Below, piece by piece: positions 2,630-18,312 of a stretch of 22,452 bases of DNA; positions within the stretch are counted from its first letter, which is position 1, and every line of letters begins with the position of its first letter. Position numbers and translations under genes: made by a program. The DNA is from a virus: positions 1 through 22,452 of the IMG/VR virus record IMGVR_UViG_3300018041_000077; one strand, given 5' to 3'. The notes under the pieces were generated by a model. The model saw only the letters and a program-made list of their open reading frames with translations. It had not been told where the DNA came from and searched no databases.

Positions 2630-3328
2630 TTAATAAATAGGATTATCTACATAATAATTACGCAAATCTTCTACAATTTCATTACGATGGTTTGAAGTAA
2701 GTGTAATTGCTTCTAGATTTTTGACTTTACGTGATGCCTTATAAAGGTATTTAAATCCTGAATCTGCTTTTTTCTTTAAGTCAATTTGTTGTTCATCCCC
2801 ACACACAATCATTTTTGAGCGTAAACCTATACGGGTTACAATCATTTCCATTTGATCATGGGTAACATTTTGTGCTTCATCTACAATAACACATGAATCT
2901 AAAAATGTTCTACCTCTCATAAATGATACAGGTACAATTTCTATTTTACCATCACTTATAAGTTTTTCAACTTTAACTTTATCGTAAAGGATAAAAAAGT
3001 TTTGGTAAATAGGTTGAACCCATGGGTCCATTTTTTCTCTTAAGTCCCCTGGTAAGAAGCCAATTTCTTCTTTAGATACTGTGGGGCGAGTAATGATTAT
3101 TTTATCATATATTCTCCTTAAAAGACCATCTAATGCTATTTGACAAGCTAATAGTGTTTTTCCTGATCCTGCTTGTCCAGCCAGCATCGTAATTGTATTG
3201 TCTAGTATTTTTTGTTTAGCTTCTTTTTGTTCATCGTTTAAGGGAACCTTAAACTTAATTGGATTTTTTGGTATTCTTTTTTCTCTAAAAATTTCTTCTG
3301 CTTTAGGAGTATTGTTGAAATGGGTCAT
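2630..3328 (-). CDS. phoH: PhoH-like ATPase
   Basis: PhoH-family P-loop NTPase of 232 residues from the chosen start. A Walker A motif GQAGSGKT lies at residues 51-58, the family segment ITRPTVSKEEIGFLPGDL follows, then FMRGRTFLDS, and a Walker B motif VIVDEAQN at about 147-154, with a later CGDEQQ sensor-like motif. PhoH proteins are cytoplasmic ATPases common in marine phages and often grouped with the phosphate regulon, though their function in phage is not settled. The frame is open to an ATG at 3367, but that start would overlap the upstream decarboxylase gene by 65 bases. The ATG at 3328 (MTHFNNTPKAEE) overlaps by 26 bases and is preferred. It is the third gene of the unit that begins after the terminator at 5005-5030. 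Confidence 0.9.
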   Translation of the reverse strand: MTHFNNTPKAEEIFREKRIPKNPIKFKVPLNDEQKEAKQKILDNTITMLAGQAGSGKTLLACQIALDGLLRRIYDKIIITRPTVSKEEIGFLPGDLREKMDPWVQPIYQNFFILYDKVKVEKLISDGKIEIVPVSFMRGRTFLDSCVIVDEAQNVTHDQMEMIVTRIGLRSKMIVCGDEQQIDLKKKADSGFKYLYKASRKVKNLEAITLTSNHRNEIVEDLRNYYVDNPIY

Positions 3329-4046
3329 TTCTAAAATTGATTTTAACCAATTTATCCAAACCTGCATTTACGTGCATTTCATCTTCTAAGACTAAATCAA
3401 AGTCATATCTTTCATCTAAAGGTAAAACTAGATCTACTTGTGAACCCCATCTTATAAGTGAGAAACGCTCATTTTGCGAAACTGGAGAATTTTGGTCGTT
3501 GATGAATGGAGCTATAACGTTAACATCTTCATCCGCAATTTGGACTAGGAAATAAGTATAGTCTAATTGAGGTGAATATATTTTATTTAACATTCTTTCA
3601 TTATACTTCAAGTATTCCATATTATTAGGATTAATTGCAGCATTAAGAATATCTTTTTCAACTGCTAACATTGGTTTGTTAGTAGATTCAATAGGATCTA
3701 ATCCCCTATATTGTAATACACCGCTATATGGTATTCTATTTATATGAACATCATAAAACGACATGAATATACCAATTACAAGGGACGGTTGATTATAATG
3801 TTTATTACCCAATACGTCTTGTACTGTGTAGTTCATACCTTTAATCTCTACTATAGGTTCAGTAGCATCTTGAATATATTTTTGGTATAAAATTACTCCA
3901 TCTGCAGGAGAATAAAAATGCTTATAATCTATGTAGTTAGGACGCATAGGGTCTCTAAAGAAGAATGTATTAGATAACTCTCCTACGGGTACATTTGACC
4001 ACTTTTCTACTTCGGTTTCTAACCAATCTTCTAAATATTGAGCCAT
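3303..4046 (-). CDS. psd: Phosphatidylserine decarboxylase-family proenzyme
   Basis: The 247-residue product carries the hallmarks of the pyruvoyl-dependent PSD family: SPADG at 46-50 (catalytic Asp49), the signature FMSFYDVHINRIPYSG at 94-109 (catalytic His101), and IRWGSQVDLVLP at 198-209. Family knowledge puts autocatalytic cleavage between Gly201 and Ser202, giving a small chain with an N-terminal pyruvoyl group of about 46 residues. All three catalytic positions are intact. The enzyme makes phosphatidylethanolamine from phosphatidylserine, but relatives act on soluble amino acids, so the substrate is uncertain. The length fits the short bacterial type, and no transmembrane segment is evident. 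Its ATG shares one base with the stop of the amidinotransferase-like gene, indicating translational coupling. It lies between the major capsid gene and PhoH, an unusual place for a lipid enzyme. Confidence 0.85.
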   Translation of the reverse strand: MAQYLEDWLETEVEKWSNVPVGELSNTFFFRDPMRPNYIDYKHFYSPADGVILYQKYIQDATEPIVEIKGMNYTVQDVLGNKHYNQPSLVIGIFMSFYDVHINRIPYSGVLQYRGLDPIESTNKPMLAVEKDILNAAINPNNMEYLKYNERMLNKIYSPQLDYTYFLVQIADEDVNVIAPFINDQNSPVSQNERFSLIRWGSQVDLVLPLDERYDFDLVLEDEMHVNAGLDKLVKINFRNDPFQQYS

Positions 4047-4981
4047 TAGACTAAAGATTTGTTATAGTCAACATAGTTAAGATGCATTACCATACAACTT
4101 AACATAGCACCTGATTTCATGTATTCCGAAAGGTTAAAGAAAACAGGTTCAAGTCCTTCATTAAAACAAATTTTTTCCATTGTTTCAATTTTAGCTTTTT
4201 CCGCTTCATAATTTTCATCTGCTCTAGTCATTTCTGAGATATTAGAGGCACATAGAATCATGTTACCTAGTCTAACAGAGTTAGTTAAACCATTGAAAGC
4301 ATCGTCAACACTTATGTCTATTATCTCAGTATATTGTGATAACTGCGCTAATTCCTCTTCGGCAAACATTTCCGTGCAAACTAATGTTTTTTCTTTAGTT
4401 AACGGAAAAATAGAACAATCAAGGTGGTAAAGGTAATCATCTACCATTTCAACTTTAATAATGTTCATATCAAATGTTTCTTCCATCCACTCATAAGCCT
4501 CATATTGACTACGAATTCCGTACCCACCTACGTAAACATTATCGTAAAGATATTTTAAATCAGCTTCTCCTTCCCACTTAAAGGGACAAATAGTAGTTTC
4601 ATAACCCATTAAATCAAAAAACGGCTTACCTGCTTTTTCTTCACCTTGTCTTGGTTCTGAGGTGAAATTAGATAAGATGATTTGGTTTGATTTCTTTATG
4701 TGGGGTAGATAAATACCTAAATTAGCTACATATACTTGATCTTGAAAATTACCATATGAAGGTAAAAGATATGCTAAAGAATTACCTGCTATAAATTCGT
4801 AAAGATCTAAAAATTGTTTATATGCTGCTCCCTTATTTATTTTTAATTGATCGGGTTCTAATTCAGTCATCCAAACATTATTTGGGTTTGAAGTATCTAA
4901 AGTAAAGGGAAAATTCAAAACATATGCTGGTATAGGCAACTGTGATGGTGTTTCTTTCATCTTTTTTATTTTATTATACAT
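4046..4981 (-). CDS. Amidinotransferase / dimethylarginine dimethylaminohydrolase-like enzyme
   Basis: The roughly 311-residue protein fits the guanidino-group-modifying superfamily (amidinotransferases, DDAH, arginine deiminases). The elements appear in order: YVLNFPF and PNNVWM near the N-terminus, DQVYVANLGIYLP, the acidic motif KWEGEADLKYL followed by VYVGGYGIRS, the catalytic-type His in YHLDCSIFPL, and near the C-terminus GAMLSCMVMHLN with the expected nucleophilic Cys. Members use a covalent Cys intermediate to transfer or hydrolyse a guanidino group; which reaction and substrate cannot be told here. The frame opens at GTG 4987; ATG 4981 is used, and ATG 4960, preceded by an A-rich leader, is an equally good start. 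It is the first gene after the capsid terminator and is coupled to the decarboxylase gene by a one-base TAATG overlap. Confidence 0.75.
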   Translation of the reverse strand: MYNKIKKMKETPSQLPIPAYVLNFPFTLDTSNPNNVWMTELEPDQLKINKGAAYKQFLDLYEFIAGNSLAYLLPSYGNFQDQVYVANLGIYLPHIKKSNQIILSNFTSEPRQGEEKAGKPFFDLMGYETTICPFKWEGEADLKYLYDNVYVGGYGIRSQYEAYEWMEETFDMNIIKVEMVDDYLYHLDCSIFPLTKEKTLVCTEMFAEEELAQLSQYTEIIDISVDDAFNGLTNSVRLGNMILCASNISEMTRADENYEAEKAKIETMEKICFNEGLEPVFFNLSEYMKSGAMLSCMVMHLNYVDYNKSLV

Positions 4982-5004
4982 ATACACTACCTACTAGAAC
5001 AATA

Positions 5005-5030
5005 AAAAGCCCCACCGAAGTGGGGCTTTT
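5005..5030 (-). terminator. Rho-independent terminator after the major capsid gene
   Basis: A 7-bp GC-rich stem (GCCCCAC/GTGGGGC) with a CGAA tetraloop is flanked by A and T runs, so it could work in both directions. On the minus strand it lies 25 bases past the capsid gene stop and just before the amidinotransferase-like gene. It should isolate the abundant capsid message from the metabolic block. Confidence 0.9.
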
Positions 5031-5055
5031 CTTTAGTTTATACTAAAACTTTATA

Positions 5056-6687
5056 TTAGAGGGTGTTTAAACCACTAACGTAGATCTTAGCGTAGTATTC
5101 AGGTCTTAACATCTTCTTAGCGTAACGAGTCAAGAGACCTTTTCTTGGTGTAAAGGTTTCAGGATCGTACACTAGAGGTGTCATAATCAATGGAATATAA
5201 GGAGCAAATGTAGCACCTGTTTCCAAGAATTGTGAACCTTTAAATCCTAAGAGGATTGTATTTTCAGTCATGTATGGGTTTTTATAAACCTCATACTTAG
5301 CATTTAGGTTACCAACTTTTTGGATACCAAAAGCATAGTTCATAGTTTCTGCATCAGCACCATCTGCCGCTGCGAATCCAGGAATTGATTCCAAAACGGT
5401 ACCAATTGTGGGTGAGCAAACCATGAAGTTAGCACCTCCTCTTAAGGTCAACTGGTGGATCTTGTTAGATACCTTGTTGATCTTAGTACCGAGGGTTTGG
5501 AACCATTGGCCTTGTGTATTATAGAAAGTACCATTATCTACAGTGCCATTAGCATCAAATTGCTCATTATTTTTAGCTGACCAGTACTCTGTGGTAAGAG
5601 CATTCTCGATCAACATGCCTAGAATTTCTAGGTCAATTTCAAGAGCAATGTACTCACTCATAATGCTTGTCAACTCAGCCTCAGCATCTAAGCTGTGATA
5701 AGCGTTCAAGTCTTGAGCAAACTCAGGAGTCCAGACAGCTTTTAGCTTTCTTGTTTTAGCTACAATAGCTTCAGACTTCATTTTAATGTTAACCTCAGGG
5801 ATAGAGATAGGATCATTTTCACCATTAAGTGAAGTATTACCATCCTCAAAGTCACCTCTAAATTGGTCGGTAGGCTGTTGTACGTAGGTTACAGTAAAGT
5901 TTGCAGGAGCTGTTGATGAAGAAACGTACAATACGGGATCTCCTCCTACAGCTTTGTTGTATTCAGAAACATTAGCTGTAATGTTAGATCCTGAAGTTAC
6001 AAAGTAACCTCTAACGCCTACTAAGTCAGGGCTAGAAAGAGCGACACTTGCATCTACTGTAATCTTCCACAACTCACCTGCAGCTGCGGAAGCTGAAAGT
6101 GCTGAGTTAAATCCGGTATCAGCCCATGTAGCAGCTACTACAGTATGAGTAGAACCAGATGCTAAAGTAGCGGATTGTGTTACATTAGATGAATAGGTCC
6201 ACTTACCAGCACCGTATAAACCATCGGTAGGAGCAGTATTAGTATCAGTAACTCCATACATAGAGCCTGTACCAAATACATCACCGCCAGCATTAAACTT
6301 GCCTCCTAACTTATCAGTACCATACTGGAAGTCGAGGAAGAATACTAGACCAGAAGGTAAGCTCATTGGTTGTACACTAACAAAATCTTTTGCAGCGATT
6401 TGACCAAATACCTTTCTTACGAGGGGAAGGGCAATACCAGCCCATTGCTCACCAGTTCCGGCTGTAAAGGTAGCTGATGAAGCAGCTCCTCCACCAGTTT
6501 GGGAAGTTTCAACAACAAGTTGCTTAGCTTGGTTTTCAAGGATAAGAGACATGTTATTTCTGTCAATTTCACCTTTTAAACCTTCAAGCAAACCTGTTCT
6601 TTCCCATTTATTAGCTAACCTAGCAGCATCGCTCTGGACGACTTTCCACTGGTTAGCGCTCTCTAGAAGAGAATTTAAGTTTGACAT
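5056..6687 (-). CDS. gp23: Major capsid protein (T4 gp23-like)
   Basis: The 543-residue protein resembles T4 gp23. The N-terminal delta region (MSNLNSLLESANQWK) precedes SLILENQAKQLVVE, then GEQWAGIALPLVRKVFGQIAAKDFVSVQPM and LPSGLVFFLDFQYG, the conserved gp23 core start. T4 gp23 is trimmed by gp21; E60 in QLVVE before a Gly-rich stretch is a plausible cleavage point here, E51 an alternative. A Thr/Ser/Ala-rich central part (about residues 130-280) looks like a surface insertion, followed by the conserved EINIKMKSEAIVAKTRKLKAVW-type segment. It forms the hexameric capsid shell. It follows the scaffold gene by 25 bases and ends before a strong terminator. Codon use is more GC-rich than in neighbouring genes, as expected for high expression. 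Confidence 0.95.
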   Translation of the reverse strand: MSNLNSLLESANQWKVVQSDAARLANKWERTGLLEGLKGEIDRNNMSLILENQAKQLVVETSQTGGGAASSATFTAGTGEQWAGIALPLVRKVFGQIAAKDFVSVQPMSLPSGLVFFLDFQYGTDKLGGKFNAGGDVFGTGSMYGVTDTNTAPTDGLYGAGKWTYSSNVTQSATLASGSTHTVVAATWADTGFNSALSASAAAGELWKITVDASVALSSPDLVGVRGYFVTSGSNITANVSEYNKAVGGDPVLYVSSSTAPANFTVTYVQQPTDQFRGDFEDGNTSLNGENDPISIPEVNIKMKSEAIVAKTRKLKAVWTPEFAQDLNAYHSLDAEAELTSIMSEYIALEIDLEILGMLIENALTTEYWSAKNNEQFDANGTVDNGTFYNTQGQWFQTLGTKINKVSNKIHQLTLRGGANFMVCSPTIGTVLESIPGFAAADGADAETMNYAFGIQKVGNLNAKYEVYKNPYMTENTILLGFKGSQFLETGATFAPYIPLIMTPLVYDPETFTPRKGLLTRYAKKMLRPEYYAKIYVSGLNTL

Positions 6688-6712: not shown

Positions 6713-8017
6713 TTATTTAATACCTGCTAATTTTTTAAAGCGTGACACCATAGCATCTTCTTCAACAACTTTTTGTTCGGTCATAAGACGCTTAGGGGCA
6801 ACACCCGCAGATTTTGAAGCAAGACCTATAGATTCTTTAATGTTAGATTTAGTTGACTTATTAACTAAATTTTCATTTAAAGTTTCGAAGATAGTTTTTG
6901 CTTCTTGTACTGTTTCAGCTTTATCAAAAGCCTTTAAAACCTTAATTTTTTGATTTTCTGTCAAGTTTTTGGCTTTGAAAATCTTGTTTGTGTAAAGGAG
7001 TTTAGAATTAAGAAGATTAACCTCATTAAGTTCGGTTTGGAGGTGTTTAATAACAAGTTTAGCCTCTTTAAGCTCTTTATTGTTAGAAGCTTCGAAACCT
7101 TCATTGCTAGTAGTTCCTCCTTTAATACCTGCACTTAAAGATGATGCTAAACCTTGTAATTTTTTAGCAGCTTTTGGGAAAACTCCCTCAAGTTTTGTCA
7201 TAAGGGCAGCTAATCCTGCCACAGAAGTTACACCAGCAGCCATTACCATAGCTTTAATAGCGGGTAATCCTAAGCCTAGGATTTCAGCTAGTTGCATTAA
7301 AGTTTCAGTAGTAAAGTCTTCATTTAAGATTTCCTCTTCTACTTCTTCATTTTCTTGAAGATCAACATCAACATCAACATCTGCATCTCCTATTTCACCT
7401 TCTTCATCTTTGCCTTCTTCTTCTTCTTCTTCAGACTCATCTGCTTCAGGTCCGGGAACTAATTCACCATCTTCGATCATATCTTCAATAACATCTTCGA
7501 TAAAGCTTTTTAGGTCATCCTCGCTCATGTCTTCAAGATTGATCTCTTCTTCGGTTTCAGTTTCAGTTTCAGCTTCTTCTTCTTCATACATGTCATCACC
7601 TTCATCCATGTGGTCACTTTCGTCCACATCATAAGCTTCGTCCATGTCTTCACCTCCACCTTCTTCTAATTCTAACTCAGCTAGAAGTTCGTCTAAATCT
7701 AGCTCTTCGTCCATGTCTTCAGCTTCTTTCATGTCTTCTTTGCCGTAGCCTTCATCCATGTCTTCAGATTCATCCATTTTTTCTTTACCTTCTTTCTCTA
7801 ACTTTTTTGCTTCTTCCATTTCTTCCTTTTCCTTGATTACCTTATCGGCTTCAGATATATCATCTTCTTCATCAAGTTGGGAAATTTTTTCAGAAAGCAT
7901 AGATTTAAGTTGGGGAGTAAAGGCTTCTTCTAAAGCAGCTTTTGCATTAGCAATAGCAACTTCTTTGACAGCTTTTGCGTCAGCAATAGCTTCTCTTAAC
8001 AAATCTCTGTTTGCCAT
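6713..8017 (-). CDS. gp22: Prohead core scaffolding protein (T4 gp22-like), hyperacidic
   Basis: The 434-residue protein lies directly upstream of the capsid gene, as gp22 does in T4-like phages. It has an Ala/Lys helix at the N-terminus (MANRDLLREAIADAKAVKE), then an extremely acidic stretch at about residues 45-230 with repeated EDMDE-type units. A short hydrophobic segment (AMVMAAGVTSVAGLAALM) follows at about 255-275, then a C-terminal domain with the pattern LLYTNKIFKAKNLTENQKIK and ending SRFKKLAGIK, which fits T4-like core proteins. The scaffold fills the prohead, is cut up by the prohead protease and leaves before packaging. The acidic region is long for the family and internally repetitive. 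Alternative names would be a fused gp67/gp68/gp22-like core protein; assignment rests on position and the C-terminal pattern. Confidence 0.8.
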   Translation of the reverse strand: MANRDLLREAIADAKAVKEVAIANAKAALEEAFTPQLKSMLSEKISQLDEEDDISEADKVIKEKEEMEEAKKLEKEGKEKMDESEDMDEGYGKEDMKEAEDMDEELDLDELLAELELEEGGGEDMDEAYDVDESDHMDEGDDMYEEEEAETETETEEEINLEDMSEDDLKSFIEDVIEDMIEDGELVPGPEADESEEEEEEGKDEEGEIGDADVDVDVDLQENEEVEEEILNEDFTTETLMQLAEILGLGLPAIKAMVMAAGVTSVAGLAALMTKLEGVFPKAAKKLQGLASSLSAGIKGGTTSNEGFEASNNKELKEAKLVIKHLQTELNEVNLLNSKLLYTNKIFKAKNLTENQKIKVLKAFDKAETVQEAKTIFETLNENLVNKSTKSNIKESIGLASKSAGVAPKRLMTEQKVVEEDAMVSRFKKLAGIK

Positions 8018-13744: not shown

Positions 13745-15312
13745 AAAATCCAACTAAAATCTTCTTTTCCCCCTTTCCCATTATCCATGTGATAGGGGTT
13801 ATCAGCTCCTTTAGCAAAATATGCTGCTTTATAAGGGGTGGATCCTTGTGACATAGAGCCTAAAGCAGCTTTTGCAATATCTACTCCATGTTGTTTATAT
13901 TTTAATGCGGTATCTCGTACATATAAGCCAATACCAAAGCTCATTACTAAATCATCGTTATAACCCTGTTGAGCTTCTGCTCTACCATATTTCCATATAA
14001 ACGTTTTCATTTCTTCTAATAAACGTTTAGATTGGATTGTAACCCCTCTATCTGCAACATATTCTTGAAATTTGCCAATAACCATAGGACGAGTTCTTGA
14101 TGACATGGTAAACCCTGCTGTCATGTTAGATAATCGACCTGAGGCTCTTAAGTATGAATCTACGTCTACTGTTTCAGATTTTGGGGAATAATATAAATTG
14201 GGGTAATTTTTTTCAATTATGGTTTGAATTGTACTCCATCCTATATTAGCATTTTCTACTACTAACAAAGCATTATTATATTCAGTAGCAATTGCTACTA
14301 GTATATTACCAAAATCTTTAGTACCTACTTGCCCCTTATATTCACCTACTTGGGTAGCACTTTCAACATCAAAAATATGGAATGCAGAGTAGTCTTTACC
14401 ATCACCTCTAGCTACGTCAGCAGATATCATGTAGGATCTACTATAATCTGCGGGTTGCCATATCCATAAATTTTGGTCTACTCCACGTCTTTCAAGTGGT
14501 TCTTTAATTGTAGTTTTTCCTATAAATTCTAAATACTCGGGGTAAAATACTATGTCACCAGAAGTACTAAAGTCACAATCACATTCTTGTGCTGCCATTC
14601 TAGGATCTCCTAGTAATTCGTCTTGCCTATCTCTCCATTCTTGATTTCGTTCAGGGTGAACATACCAAGGTAATTTAATAGGTAAAAACTCATTTTCATT
14701 AGCCTCAGCTCGAGTCCAAGTTTGGTGAAACCAATTACCTGTACCATAGGGAGTAGACAATGCTATACATCCACCACCAGTAGCAAGGGTTTGTTGGGCT
14801 GAAGCCCATATTTCACCAATATTTTCAATAAATGCTGCCTCATCAATTAGTAGAAGAGAAACAGCTTCTGATCTACCTGCATCACTTGAAGCTGAAGTGG
14901 CTTTAATTTGGGATCCGTTTTCTAATCGAAGTGTTAATTTATTATTTTCTTCAAATTCTACTCGAAGCCACGAAGGTAAATTTTCATACATAAATTTAAC
15001 CTTTGTAACCATATTTTTAGCAGTTTCTTGTTTTGTAGCAATACAAAGAATATTTTTATCCTTTTGAAAAATCATTAACCATAAAGAATATCCTGCAGTT
15101 AGTGTAGATATACCTAACTGGCGGGATTTAAGTATGATTGAGTAAGGGTTATCTTGAAATAATTTTAAAGTTTTTTCTTGGAAAGGGTATAAATGAAAGT
15201 TAATTCTGCCCCTTTGGGGGTGTTGAATCATACAATACTTTTTCATAAAGTGTATAGGATCTTGTGCACACTTTATATACTCCTGTCTTATTATTTGCTT
15301 TAAATCACTCAA
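13741..15312 (-). CDS. terL: Terminase large subunit (T4 gp17-like)
   Basis: The 523-residue DNA-packaging motor has the adenine-binding pattern LYPFQ (41-45), a Walker A-type SRQLGIST at 63-70, Walker B LLLIDEAAF at 153-161 and coupling motif LSTPYGTG near 184-191. The RNase H-like nuclease domain shows ISADVARGDGKDYS (Asp298), LVVENANIGW (Glu352) and YNDDLVMSFG (Asp452/453). It cuts the concatemer and drives ATP-dependent packaging into the prohead at the portal. The only start upstream of ATG 15246 is a TTG at 15312, one codon after an in-frame TAA. Its four-base overlap with the previous gene, and family-like residues (EYIKCAQDPIHFMKKYC) ahead of Met23, favour the TTG start. Confidence 0.95.
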   Translation of the reverse strand: MSDLKQIIRQEYIKCAQDPIHFMKKYCMIQHPQRGRINFHLYPFQEKTLKLFQDNPYSIILKSRQLGISTLTAGYSLWLMIFQKDKNILCIATKQETAKNMVTKVKFMYENLPSWLRVEFEENNKLTLRLENGSQIKATSASSDAGRSEAVSLLLIDEAAFIENIGEIWASAQQTLATGGGCIALSTPYGTGNWFHQTWTRAEANENEFLPIKLPWYVHPERNQEWRDRQDELLGDPRMAAQECDCDFSTSGDIVFYPEYLEFIGKTTIKEPLERRGVDQNLWIWQPADYSRSYMISADVARGDGKDYSAFHIFDVESATQVGEYKGQVGTKDFGNILVAIATEYNNALLVVENANIGWSTIQTIIEKNYPNLYYSPKSETVDVDSYLRASGRLSNMTAGFTMSSRTRPMVIGKFQEYVADRGVTIQSKRLLEEMKTFIWKYGRAEAQQGYNDDLVMSFGIGLYVRDTALKYKQHGVDIAKAALGSMSQGSTPYKAAYFAKGADNPYHMDNGKGGKEDFSWIL

Positions 15313-15719
15313 TTTTTAGTTAGTAAAATAGGGGTCAATGTGCCTAGTACTGTTGTTAAAAGGGTTATAGTTCTAGTATTTCTAAGAGACTTAATTTTAC
15401 TATCTTTATCTTCTAATTCTAATTTTAGATTAACACTTTGCCAGTAACATTCCTCAGCTAATAATACTAGAGAATCAGTTGTTGTTTCATAGGTATTTAA
15501 TAAAATAGAATCTTGTTCTATAATAGAGTTTAAATCTGTAATTTCTGCTTTTAGAGAATCTCTCTCTTGCTGGCAGTAATCATAAGAAACTAGGTCTGCT
15601 GCTATTTCCCTAACTTGTTCAGTAGGGATACAAATTAGATCAGTTTCCGTATCTTTCTGTGAAAAAGTTGGTAAGCTCATTATGAGACATACCATCAATA
15701 TTAGATAATTGTTGCGCAT
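15309..15719 (-). CDS. Exported coiled-coil protein with C-terminal hydrophobic segment (spanin-like candidate)
   Basis: The 136-residue product starts with a clear signal peptide (LILMVCLIMSLPTFSQ, likely cleaved after FSQ as often in flavobacteria). It continues with a heptad-like region at about 45-115 containing several Cys residues, and ends with a hydrophobic stretch (TITLLTTVLGTLTPILL) that could span a membrane. LMVC is not a proper lipobox, so a lipoprotein is unlikely. Its first 80 bases overlap, in another reading frame, the gene of an N-terminally anchored coiled-coil protein. Overlap plus complementary topology recalls Rz/Rz1 spanin pairs, which fuse inner and outer membranes at lysis, but Rz1 would be a lipoprotein. 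The call is therefore tentative. The stop overlaps the terminase start by four bases. Confidence 0.75.
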   Translation of the reverse strand: MRNNYLILMVCLIMSLPTFSQKDTETDLICIPTEQVREIAADLVSYDYCQQERDSLKAEITDLNSIIEQDSILLNTYETTTDSLVLLAEECYWQSVNLKLELEDKDSKIKSLRNTRTITLLTTVLGTLTPILLTKN

Positions 15720-16014
15720 ATTTTCTTTTAATTCGGTTTAATTCTTTACTCCTATTGTCAATAGTAATGTTAAGACTATCTATAACCATTTCAGTAGAAG
15801 TTAAAGTATATTCTAAGTTATTTTTAGCAAAAGTTATTTTATCTAATTCACCTTGATATTTTGATTTTTCTGTTTCTAATAGTTCATTAAACTTAACTTC
15901 AGCATCAATTATTGCCTGTGTAGCTAGGTCTTTTGTCATATACCAAGTTAATCCTACTCCGGTAACTAATCCTATGACTATTCCTAATCCAATGGATATT
16001 ACATTATTTTTCAT
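15640..16014 (-). CDS. Membrane-anchored coiled-coil protein (inner-spanin-like candidate)
   Basis: The 124-residue protein has one N-terminal transmembrane segment (about residues 5-27, VISIGLGIVIGLVTGVGLTW) followed by a long hydrophilic, Lys/Glu-rich coiled coil up to residue 110. Such a topology, with a short cytoplasmic end and a long periplasmic helix, is that of inner-membrane spanins (Rz), though many phage accessory membrane proteins share it. The gene starts in a four-base overlap with the upstream kinase gene (ATGA) and its last 80 bases overlap the start of an exported protein in a different frame. No endolysin or holin gene is visible nearby, which weakens the lysis interpretation. 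Confidence 0.75.
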   Translation of the reverse strand: MKNNVISIGLGIVIGLVTGVGLTWYMTKDLATQAIIDAEVKFNELLETEKSKYQGELDKITFAKNNLEYTLTSTEMVIDSLNITIDNRSKELNRIKRKYAQQLSNIDGMSHNELTNFFTERYGN

Positions 16015-16547
16015 GATAATACATATTGAGGTTCAATAACTTCCATTATTTGTCCTATACGTTCTTCAGTAGAACCTTTAAGCTCATAATATGGGGGGTT
16101 ATATTTTAATATTAATTTTTGAATTTCTTCATCAATTTCAGCTCTATAATTAGTATCTGTTTCTCTAATACCATTATCTTCTATATCCATTCCTTTAGGA
16201 GAAATATAAAATATATAATCATACTGTTTAATAAATCGACAAGCATATTCCGCAAATGCATCCCTGTCCATTATACTAACCTTTTGAGCTCGATTTGTAA
16301 AGGCAATTACATCTAGAATAGTTCTATCAGTAATCAAATTAGGATTCATTAGTTCACTAACACGTTCAGCTAAAAATATAGTCTGTCCTTCAATAGTAGT
16401 TTCATAATTTAAAGGTATGCCAAGTGAACTCAAATATGCACTGCGTTCAGTGGTGAATGTGTAACCTTCAAATTGTGGTAAATTTTTAAGTGTATTCACA
16501 AGTGTGGTTTTTCCTACACTCATTGTTCCTGTAAATCCTATTTTCAT
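16011..16547 (-). CDS. P-loop nucleotide/nucleoside kinase-like ATPase (AAA_28/NadR-like)
   Basis: The 178-residue protein has a perfect Walker A motif GTMSVGKT at residues 7-14, then TTERSAYLSSLGIPLN, ITDRTILDVIAFTNRAQ with the kinase-type Asp-Arg pair, and YDYIFYISPKGMDIEDNGIRETD, a lid-like segment with Arg. This arrangement is that of AAA_28/NadR C-terminal-type kinases and deoxynucleoside kinases, which phosphorylate small substrates in the cytoplasm. Nucleotide or NAD-precursor salvage during infection is a plausible role; the substrate cannot be assigned by eye. It follows the small gene at 16549-16806 after one base, has an unusually strong ribosome-binding site, and overlaps the next gene by four bases. 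Confidence 0.75.
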   Translation of the reverse strand: MKIGFTGTMSVGKTTLVNTLKNLPQFEGYTFTTERSAYLSSLGIPLNYETTIEGQTIFLAERVSELMNPNLITDRTILDVIAFTNRAQKVSIMDRDAFAEYACRFIKQYDYIFYISPKGMDIEDNGIRETDTNYRAEIDEEIQKLILKYNPPYYELKGSTEERIGQIMEVIEPQYVLS

Positions 16548-16548
16548 C

Positions 16549-16806
16549 TTATCCTCCTTGTCTTGCTGATTCTCTCATTGCGGGGTTCTTATACCAAGGA
16601 AGTCCTTGAGTATTGCGTTTTGCTTCTCTCCATTCGTCCTCAGTGTATTGAGTACCATAAAGATAATATTCTCTTTTACGTTTCTCACCCTGAGGTATTA
16701 AGGCTGGGCCATCCCAGTTGTGGAGTTTCCCATCCCAATAATGTACTATTGTACCTTCAGGCGTTTTCAAGCGCTTCGGTTTTGGCCATTTCTCTTTGTT
16801 TTTCAT
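16549..16806 (-). CDS. Small DGPA-motif protein of unknown function
   Basis: The 85-residue basic protein contains HYWDGKLHNWDGPALIP and EYYLYGTQYTEDEW. The pattern of W-x-G-K-x-H-N-x-D-G-P-A followed by YY-x-x-G is found as a short repeat in many phage and viral hypothetical proteins; here it appears once. The start overlaps the end of the FAD dehydrogenase gene by 50 bases in another frame, and no later Met gives a shorter start. The C-terminal codons for RQGG also form the ribosome-binding site of the next gene. No function can be given. Confidence 0.7.
   Translation of the reverse strand: MKNKEKWPKPKRLKTPEGTIVHYWDGKLHNWDGPALIPQGEKRKREYYLYGTQYTEDEWREAKRNTQGLPWYKNPAMRESARQGG
16553..16559 (-). 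promoter_or_regulatory. Strong Shine-Dalgarno site for the P-loop kinase gene
   Basis: AAGGAGG lies five bases before ATG 16547, embedded in the last codons of the preceding gene. Most other genes here have only A-rich leaders, as usual for Bacteroidota, so this perfect site stands out, although it may simply reflect the coding of Gln-Gly-Gly. Confidence 0.5.
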
Positions 16807-18205
16807 TTTTTTCTAAAATTGATTCTGCTACATAAGTTCCTTGTGCTCCTGAGACTGTAATGCCTCTTGCGGATAGAGCATCTCCGACAAAGTGAATGTT
16901 AGGAATTTCTTTAAGAGCTAAAGTATCATAATCTACTAAAGGTTCAGGGCTAAGATACTTTACCTCCGGGATATACATACCCCAATCATCACCAAGTGTT
17001 GGAAATACTTTTTTCATATCCTCAATAAAATCTTCAATATATTTAAAGTATCCTTGGAAATGATCACGAACTTCTTGTAAACCTCTTTCAGTAATATAAT
17101 GGGCTTTTACCCAATCACCCTCAGATGTTTTACTCTTTAAACGGTTTACAACACCACCACCACCTTCTTCTTTAATCCAAGGTGAATAATATAGTCCTGC
17201 TTTATATTTAACTTGACGTCTACCAATAGCACGTGTTCCTGCAGCACCTTCACCAGGTACAATATCTACTTTTTGTACTTTAGAGACTAATTCACGAGAC
17301 CAATCAAATGGTTTATCAATTCCTTGAACTTCCATTAAAATACCAAAGTTAGTCATATCATTACGATATGATTCATCCTTTTTAGCATGTCCATTGTAAC
17401 TATAATCTCCATATGTTTCTTCAAGTGCTACATAAGCAGCATTATTATTGGTACAAAACGAACGGAGTGATACACCTTCATCTTCAAACTTACGATACAA
17501 TTTAAAATCATAACTTACATCAATAAGTTTTTGAAAGTGTTTTTGTGGGGCTTCAAAACGCACACCAATTTGTACTGGTTTAGGTTCAGTGGGTTGATTG
17601 TTTTCTTCAATAAATCTTTTACCAAAATCAATACCACTTTTACCTACTCCAAAAATTAAACGATCATAATGGACCCAACCTTCAGTAACTCCATCATAAT
17701 ATTTTACACTATTAAGTGTATGTTCTATATCTGTAACTTTAGTGTTCCATATAAATTTAACACCTTTATCACAAAGAAAATCATACCAATTTTTACCAAT
17801 CTCGTGTAGATAATCTGTACCTACGTGCCAAACTGGGAATAGTCGAAGTCCAAAATGTGGTTTGATAAAATCAGGTTCTGATTCTGGGTTTGAGCATTGG
17901 ACTTCTTCTGGTTTAGGATGGAATCGTTTAAAGTTAGTGATTACTTGGTCCATCAGTTCCATAGCCTTTTCATCGCCACAATACTTAGACATATGTCCAC
18001 CAATTGAAGTATGATAAGTAAGTTTACCATCACTCCAACCACCAGCACCCATAAACCCTGTCATTACTTCTTCAGGTTTACGTTTATAAGGATCGTTACC
18101 CATATCAATAATAGTGATGTGATCACCAGGGTAACCATTATCAACTAATTTGGTAGCAGCATTAACACCTGCTACACCTGCTCCGATTATTACTATTTTT
18201 TCCAT
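16757..18205 (-). CDS. FAD-dependent dehydrogenase (COG2509-like)
   Basis: From ATG 18205 the product has 482 residues and begins MEKIVIIGAGVAG, a classic Rossmann dinucleotide-binding motif (GAGVAG at 8-13). Further elements are GGWSDGKLTYHTSIGG (about 56-70), HVGTD, a second GVGKSG, QIGVRFEAP, RSFCTNN, and near the C-terminus IHFVGDALSARGITVSGAQG, the FAD-contacting end. This order fits the uncharacterised FAD-dependent dehydrogenases of COG2509, cytoplasmic flavoproteins whose substrate is not established. A longer frame reaches 18271, but it would run through the terminator and promoter, so the inner ATG is preferred. It is the first gene of its unit, with its own candidate promoter. A full-length redox flavoprotein in a T4-like structural neighbourhood is unusual. 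Confidence 0.85.
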   Translation of the reverse strand: MEKIVIIGAGVAGVNAATKLVDNGYPGDHITIIDMGNDPYKRKPEEVMTGFMGAGGWSDGKLTYHTSIGGHMSKYCGDEKAMELMDQVITNFKRFHPKPEEVQCSNPESEPDFIKPHFGLRLFPVWHVGTDYLHEIGKNWYDFLCDKGVKFIWNTKVTDIEHTLNSVKYYDGVTEGWVHYDRLIFGVGKSGIDFGKRFIEENNQPTEPKPVQIGVRFEAPQKHFQKLIDVSYDFKLYRKFEDEGVSLRSFCTNNNAAYVALEETYGDYSYNGHAKKDESYRNDMTNFGILMEVQGIDKPFDWSRELVSKVQKVDIVPGEGAAGTRAIGRRQVKYKAGLYYSPWIKEEGGGGVVNRLKSKTSEGDWVKAHYITERGLQEVRDHFQGYFKYIEDFIEDMKKVFPTLGDDWGMYIPEVKYLSPEPLVDYDTLALKEIPNIHFVGDALSARGITVSGAQGTYVAESILEKNEKQREMAKTEALENA

Positions 18206-18217
18206 TTTTCTAGGTTT

Positions 18218-18249
18218 TAAATATACGAAAAAAAAGTGTGACCCACCAA
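18218..18249 (-). promoter_or_regulatory. Candidate Bacteroidota-type promoter for the FAD dehydrogenase gene
   Basis: On the minus strand TTGG (18249-18246) and TATATTTA (18225-18218) are separated by 20 bases. The block TTGG..TCACA..TCGTATATTTA is nearly the same as upstream of the 8186-8680 gene. The site overlaps the terminator of the preceding unit and lies 12 bases before the ATG, so any leader would be very short. Confidence 0.5.
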
Positions 18250-18264
18250 TTAAGATGGGCCACA
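18228..18264 (-). terminator. Rho-independent terminator after the histone H1-like gene
   Basis: On the minus strand a nine-pair stem TGTGGCCCA/TGGGTCACA (one G-T pair) with a ten-base loop is followed by C and eight T residues. It lies about 50 bases past the stop of the histone-like gene and closes the transcription unit entering from the right. Confidence 0.75.
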
Positions 18265-18312
18265 GCTCCAAAATTTTTAATTAAATCGACTGGCTATGAA
18301 TCAGTCTGTAAA

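Follow-up and report, generated by a model that had tools for sequence, protein, structure and literature searches.

The Locus and Its Gene Order

Which reaction is served by a gene of the phosphatidylserine decarboxylase (PSD) superfamily that stands among the head genes of a T4-like phage? The question is raised by the window (the whole stretch of DNA analysed, 22,452 nt), which covers part of the record of a T4-like phage. An open reading frame in it (3303..4046, (-) strand, 247 aa, ATG start, phrog_12670) encodes a PSD-fold, probably pyruvoyl-dependent decarboxylase with D49, H101 and a predicted self-cleavage site G201-S202. The recognised head genes are gp17-type terminase, gp20 portal, gp21 protease, gp23 capsid protein and PhoH. 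The first-pass annotation had placed the gene in a T4-like structural/tail region; the structural part of this placement stands (portal, protease, scaffold, gp23 major capsid protein (MCP), terminase and PhoH form a head cluster), and the tail part was ruled out, the surrounding genes being head genes. A phage PSD had also been called unexpected there; precedent exists, as Campylobacter phage records annotate a "phosphatidylserine decarboxylase".

The gene directly upstream (4046..4987, (-) strand, phrog_12759), passed over in the first-pass annotation, encodes an arginine-dihydrolase-like pentein with N89, R113, E139, R159, H188 and C298. Its stop and the start of the PSD-like gene overlap in TAATG, by which the PSD-like gene is translationally coupled to the pentein gene. 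On its 3' side the PSD-like gene adjoins that of a PhoH-like ATPase (2630..3367, (-) strand in the window), as it does in almost every environmental phage locus; the ATPase was treated as a genomic neighbour outside the claimed pathway, and the upstream gp23-like MCP gene (5056..6687, (-) strand) as context only. Between the MCP and protease genes, at 6713-8017 on the (-) strand, a very acidic, repeat-bearing protein of 434 aa occupies the scaffold (gp22-like) position; it had no PHROG match.

The gap between the MCP and pentein genes contains an intrinsic-terminator-like hairpin (5004..5031, (-) strand; 12 pairs, UUCG loop, T run), given which the pentein and PSD-like genes may form their own transcription unit; the stem is strong and the statistics are weak, the terminator scan having returned 2 matches, this one included, vs 2.0 expected in shuffles. 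The T4 late promoter TATAAATA was not enriched upstream of the module (3 found vs 4.8 expected), and a tRNA scan of the window returned none.

Identity of the PSD-Like Protein

The motifs SPADG (D49), YDVHINR (H101) and WGSQ (G201-S202) were found where the first-pass annotation had placed them, and its reading of a phage-borne member of the PSD superfamily with intact catalytic and self-processing residues was borne out by the profile search and structure prediction that it had proposed. Pfam PF02666 (PS_Dcarbxylase) matched 3303-4046 at E 5.4e-24 (85.4 bits vs a cut-off of 22); D49, H101, G201, S202 and Q203 were invariant in 49/49 homologues, drawn from phages and from bacteria of several phyla. 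Among solved structures, E. coli PSD was the one closest to the AlphaFold model (pLDDT 81, pTM 0.84, loops of moderate confidence), whose solved structural neighbours also include an Aspergillus oryzae arginine decarboxylase and the tryptophan decarboxylase PsiD. The dN/dS values vs eight phage relatives were 0.03-0.10 where estimable, synonymous sites being saturated in two comparisons. By the Pfam match, the invariant residues, the low dN/dS and the E. coli PSD-like model, the reading frame is a real, constrained gene and not a chance one.

Lipid Decarboxylase or Not

The preferred suggestion of the first-pass annotation was remodelling of host membranes by conversion of phosphatidylserine into phosphatidylethanolamine (PE). 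Membership in PF02666 and the intact triad agree with a true PSD of this kind, the pentein then being occupied with an unrelated task; most of the evidence points the other way. Scores against the NCBIfam PSD equivalogs were far too low (best 71.1 bits vs 183 required), and no cut-off was reached by the window protein or by its family. A separate canonical PSD was encoded in 14/17 bacterial genomes that carry the PSD-like gene, with PF02666 scores of 150-210 bits for the canonical proteins vs 77-97 for the PSD-like copies; a profile built from the PSD-like family scored its own members at 380-401 bits and canonical PSDs at 40 at most. The hydrophobic stretch of the canonical enzymes has no match in the PSD-like protein (best 19-residue hydropathy 0.95 vs 1.26-1.85 in most canonical PSDs of the same genomes), and no gene of the CDP-alcohol phosphatidyltransferase/PS-synthase family (CDP-OH_P_transf) was found in 10 phage records. 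The tight pairing with the pentein, described below, speaks in the same direction. The lipid interpretation is therefore probably wrong: conversion of phosphatidylserine into PE was rejected as the main function on the separate canonical PSD, the sub-cut-off scores and the pentein partner, and a true PSD beside an unrelated pentein is regarded as very improbable.

In a tree, the PSD-like proteins stood apart from the canonical PSDs encoded alongside them, with moderate support (85/78). A tree had been proposed earlier as a check for a phage clade; such a clade was recovered for the 21 environmental phage rows (97/99), and Bacteroides phage DAC19 and Fletchervirus lay on long branches that were not placed.

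The Pentein Partner

No Pfam model matched the pentein. The NCBIfam models for dimethylargininase (1e-21) and arginine dihydrolase (7e-20) did so below their curated cut-offs; for the Arg_dihydro equivalog 71 bits were obtained vs 450 required. The arginine dihydrolase model was matched by 43/43 members of the pentein family, and a PDB sequence search returned AgrE and ArgZ. Since the members score under the equivalog cut-off, the specificity may have shifted from that of the arginine dihydrolases.

The AlphaFold model of the pentein (pLDDT 90) was superimposed on ArgZ/AgrE with Z 34 and rmsd 1.9 Å over about 264 residues; the other matches were AstB (succinylarginine dihydrolase, Z 27), DDAH (26.6), arginine deiminase (25.6), amidinotransferases (24) and agmatine deiminases (20.9). 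By the alignment ranges C298 fell on ArgZ C264, presumably the Cys replaced by Ser in 6jv1, a substrate complex. By the sequence alignment N89 fell on ArgZ N71, presumably the active-site position mutated in PDB 6juz; PDB titles are the source for these roles of the ArgZ residues. The position of N89 is generally Asp in deiminases, Asn being common to ArgZ and also AstB.

Among 45 homologues H188 and E139 were present in 45/45, C298 and N89 in 44/45, and R113 and R159 in 44-45/45; the sole exception in this residue set was one Streptoalloteichus copy. In penteins of the DDAH/ADI type arginines hold the substrate carboxylate (PMC11659421), and R113 and R159 are by analogy putative carboxylate-binding residues. 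The dN/dS values of the pentein vs eight phage relatives were 0.09-0.18, and both genes of the pair are thus under purifying selection.

The exceptional copy (locus L089, 6795-7694) belongs to Streptoalloteichus hindustanus, adjoins a PSD-like gene and carries N89D, R159H and C298R; a second pentein/PSD-like pair is present on another contig of the same genome. The Streptoalloteichus neighbourhoods were looked at since a Campylobacter record note cites AF210249, which we take to be the bleomycin cluster; inspection of the ORF starts gave no obvious gene cluster.

Co-Occurrence of the Two Genes

The PSD-like protein was found in 45 of 50,697 phage records and the pentein in all 45 of these; two further records had the pentein only, one being a fragmentary Campylobacter phage and the other a Xanthomonas phage with a distant DDAH. 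In the Campylobacter Fletchervirus the two genes are separated by ~40 kb, and neighbourhood alone therefore does not account for their co-occurrence. Environmental viral contigs showed the recurrent order MCP-pentein-PSD-PhoH: the pentein gene was directly upstream in 77/77 environmental phage loci having upstream sequence, and the PSD-like gene was present in 79/79 newly fetched viral loci that had been seeded with the pentein. These loci are related to each other, and the number of independent events behind them is much lower than 77.

The bacterial loci are a stronger test of the pairing than the environmental phage loci. GTDB genomes were searched with the PSD-like alignment to give 30 loci, of which 28 are bacterial and have a full-length or nearly full-length gene; as two conserved peptide patterns served to collect the loci, the sampling cannot be called unbiased. 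The encoded proteins are 45-53% identical to that of the window and come from Verrucomicrobiota, Actinomycetota, Latescibacterota, Campylobacterota and Gammaproteobacteria. The pentein was the next gene in 27/28, forming an operon with the PSD-like gene in the order opposite to that in phages, with the decarboxylase gene first; in the 28th locus (Latescibacterota) it was elsewhere in the genome, beside a MATE gene. With this unlinked case included, both genes were present in 27/27 genomes or records searched as a whole. The pentein and the PSD-like gene are thus one functional unit, with near-obligate co-occurrence.

A contig of a metagenome-assembled genome labelled "Flavobacteriales" (L086) carries MCP, pentein and PSD-like genes; because they stand in the phage order, the contig is probably phage, and it hints at a flavobacterial host.

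Proposed Route from Arginine to Putrescine

Decarboxylation of a soluble amino acid, named as an alternative in the first-pass annotation, is now favoured, the substrate assignment resting on fold, residues, pairing with the partner and genomic neighbours. We consider the chances somewhat better than even that the pair is a short pathway in which arginine is converted into ornithine by the pentein and ornithine into putrescine by the PSD-like pyruvoyl decarboxylase. The pentein would hydrolyse arginine as ArgZ/AgrE do, with ornithine, CO2 and two ammonia as the products. For the PSD-like protein we infer pyruvoyl formation by self-cleavage at Gly201-Ser202, the cofactor then residing on Ser202; the processed enzyme would decarboxylate ornithine to putrescine. 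An infecting phage may in this manner turn host arginine into polyamine, with extension to spermidine by the host; the benefit of the polyamine would lie in the neutralisation of packaged DNA and in support for translation. Polyamine is a counter-ion in T4-type heads. Against the pathway reading stand the score of the pentein under the equivalog cut-off and the L089 pentein that lacks catalytic residues.

Both orders of the two steps give putrescine. In the reverse order, arginine would be decarboxylated to agmatine by the PSD-like protein and agmatine hydrolysed directly to putrescine by the pentein as an agmatine dihydrolase; a PSD-fold arginine decarboxylase is known from Aspergillus oryzae (PDB 9jer, 9jf5; PMC12283126), and the decarboxylase gene precedes the pentein gene in bacteria. 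Agmatine, however, has no carboxylate, whereas the pentein keeps R113 and R159 at the positions at which DDAH/ADI-type enzymes hold one (principle: PMC11659421), and agmatine deiminases were the least similar group compared with the pentein. Ornithine is favoured as the intermediate because these arginines are retained, and the reverse order is given a low, though appreciable, probability.

The bacterial neighbourhoods bear on the product. A MATE exporter follows or lies near the module in about 20 bacterial loci, suggesting an exported product, and this is compatible with a pentein that acts as an amidinotransferase, the pair making some other guanidino or amine compound which is exported by MATE in bacteria; amidinotransferases belong to the same superfamily, "amidinotransferase" is the GenBank label in Campylobacter phage records, and the polyamine amidinotransferase HsvA is among the structural neighbours (Z 23.8). 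The arginine dihydrolases are nevertheless a far better fit by Z, and N89 agrees with the Asn of ArgZ, so that an amidinotransferase is thought unlikely.

As to the route to putrescine, 10 Verrucomicrobiales loci have next to the module a gene for a PotD-like protein that would bind spermidine/putrescine (PotD model 2e-53; PDB PotD 1e-47), in most cases together with a sensor kinase; it is confined to one related lineage, and the 10 cases are therefore not independent. A search for SpeA (at cut-off), AguA and arginase/agmatinase gave no match in 5/6 Verrucomicrobiales genomes, so that, as far as these enzymes go, the module could be a main putrescine route there. Some module-bearing bacteria do possess speA/aguA, and in those it is not the sole one.

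In 10 phage records SpeE, SpeD, SpeA and arginase/agmatinase were not found; with no recognised spermidine synthase or SpeD, putrescine is at most what the phage makes. Bacteroides phage DAC19 (MT074139.1) encodes a second, AguA-like (agmatine-deiminase-like) pentein (106362-107369, (+) strand; PF04371, 87 bits), distant from the PSD/dihydrolase pair, which could be another polyamine step.

Other Features of the Window

A FAD/NAD-dependent oxidoreductase with a Rossmann N-terminus (16757-18271, (-) strand; phrog_12409 "dehydrogenase") lies in the head gene region. A P-loop kinase (16011-16547, (-) strand) resembles the thymidylate kinase of phages (phrog_2107) and, less strongly, NadR. Two small reading frames that overlap each other (15309-16014, (-) strand) immediately precede the terminase gene, one with an N-terminal hydrophobic segment (15640-16014) and the other with a signal-like start (15309-15719), an arrangement suggestive of an embedded spanin-like (Rz/Rz1) pair. 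An 18-base tandem repeat of 8.8 copies (1882-2039), encoding PEVPLV/APQVPV-type repeats on both strands, is probably part of a collagen-like tail or fibre gene.

Modification of phage DNA bases with putrescine or ornithine from the pair, as in the alpha-putrescinylthymine phages, would account for the position in the head region and would suit the thymidylate-kinase-like protein; the bacterial modules are chromosomal and lie by transporters rather than by DNA modification genes, and this use of the product is held to be extremely improbable.

Significance and Comparison with Known Systems

Taken as a whole, the proposal is that two enzymes form a hitherto undescribed path leading from arginine to putrescine: an arginine dihydrolase that stands alone, and a pyruvoyl ornithine decarboxylase whose PSD fold would add one more to the folds known for this reaction. 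The path would be used in several bacterial phyla and would have passed to T4-like phages that infect Bacteroidota and Campylobacter, being misannotated there as lipid and creatine-type metabolism; we put the chances of this at about even. If it is true, cultivable Campylobacter and Bacteroides phages carry a polyamine source, and the module is a candidate for the missing putrescine route in those Verrucomicrobiales in which speA, aguA and arginase/agmatinase were not detected. Labels of psd in phages feed claims of viral reprogramming of host phospholipids; a survey of ocean auxiliary genes, for example, counts pssA and psd under PE synthesis (PMC11360552). Should the PSD-like family make putrescine, psd labels in phages ought to be checked. 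In a literature search, with most subscription journals outside its reach, no paper was found that joins both genes as a pathway.

With E. coli PSD the PSD-like protein shares the fold, the D-H-S triad and the GS cleavage site; it differs in a sequence well outside the equivalog range, in the lack of a comparable hydrophobic stretch and in its gene partner. The E. coli enzyme presumably has GST where GSQ is found here.

Both genes are already known singly from Campylobacter phage records. The homologues in Fletchervirus (e.g., NCTC12673 gp085 "phosphatidylserine decarboxylase" and gp044 "amidinotransferase") are 39% and 41% identical; they are ~40 kb apart and labelled as two unrelated functions, whereas the genes of the window are coupled.

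A. oryzae arginine decarboxylase and PsiD are examples of a PSD fold acting on a free amino acid, as is proposed here, the former being a distinct pyruvoyl-dependent arginine decarboxylase (PMC12283126); they are fungal, with solved chains of 350-380 aa and about 15% identity, and are without the pentein link found here. Viral routes to putrescine were also described by Li et al. in their work on phage polyamine enzymes, in which arginase was reported in giant viruses and in no phage (PMC9992855); the pyruvoyl ornithine and arginine decarboxylases of those phages are derived from AdoMetDC, and PSD and dihydrolase are both unmentioned there.

The cyanobacterial ArgZ/AgrE have in common with the pentein the fold, the His, the Cys, the dihydrolase Asn and both arginines at about 23% identity. 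They carry an ornithine cyclodeaminase domain, whereas the pentein of the window is followed by a PSD-like decarboxylase; with this enzyme in place of the cyclodeaminase, ornithine would go to putrescine and not to proline.
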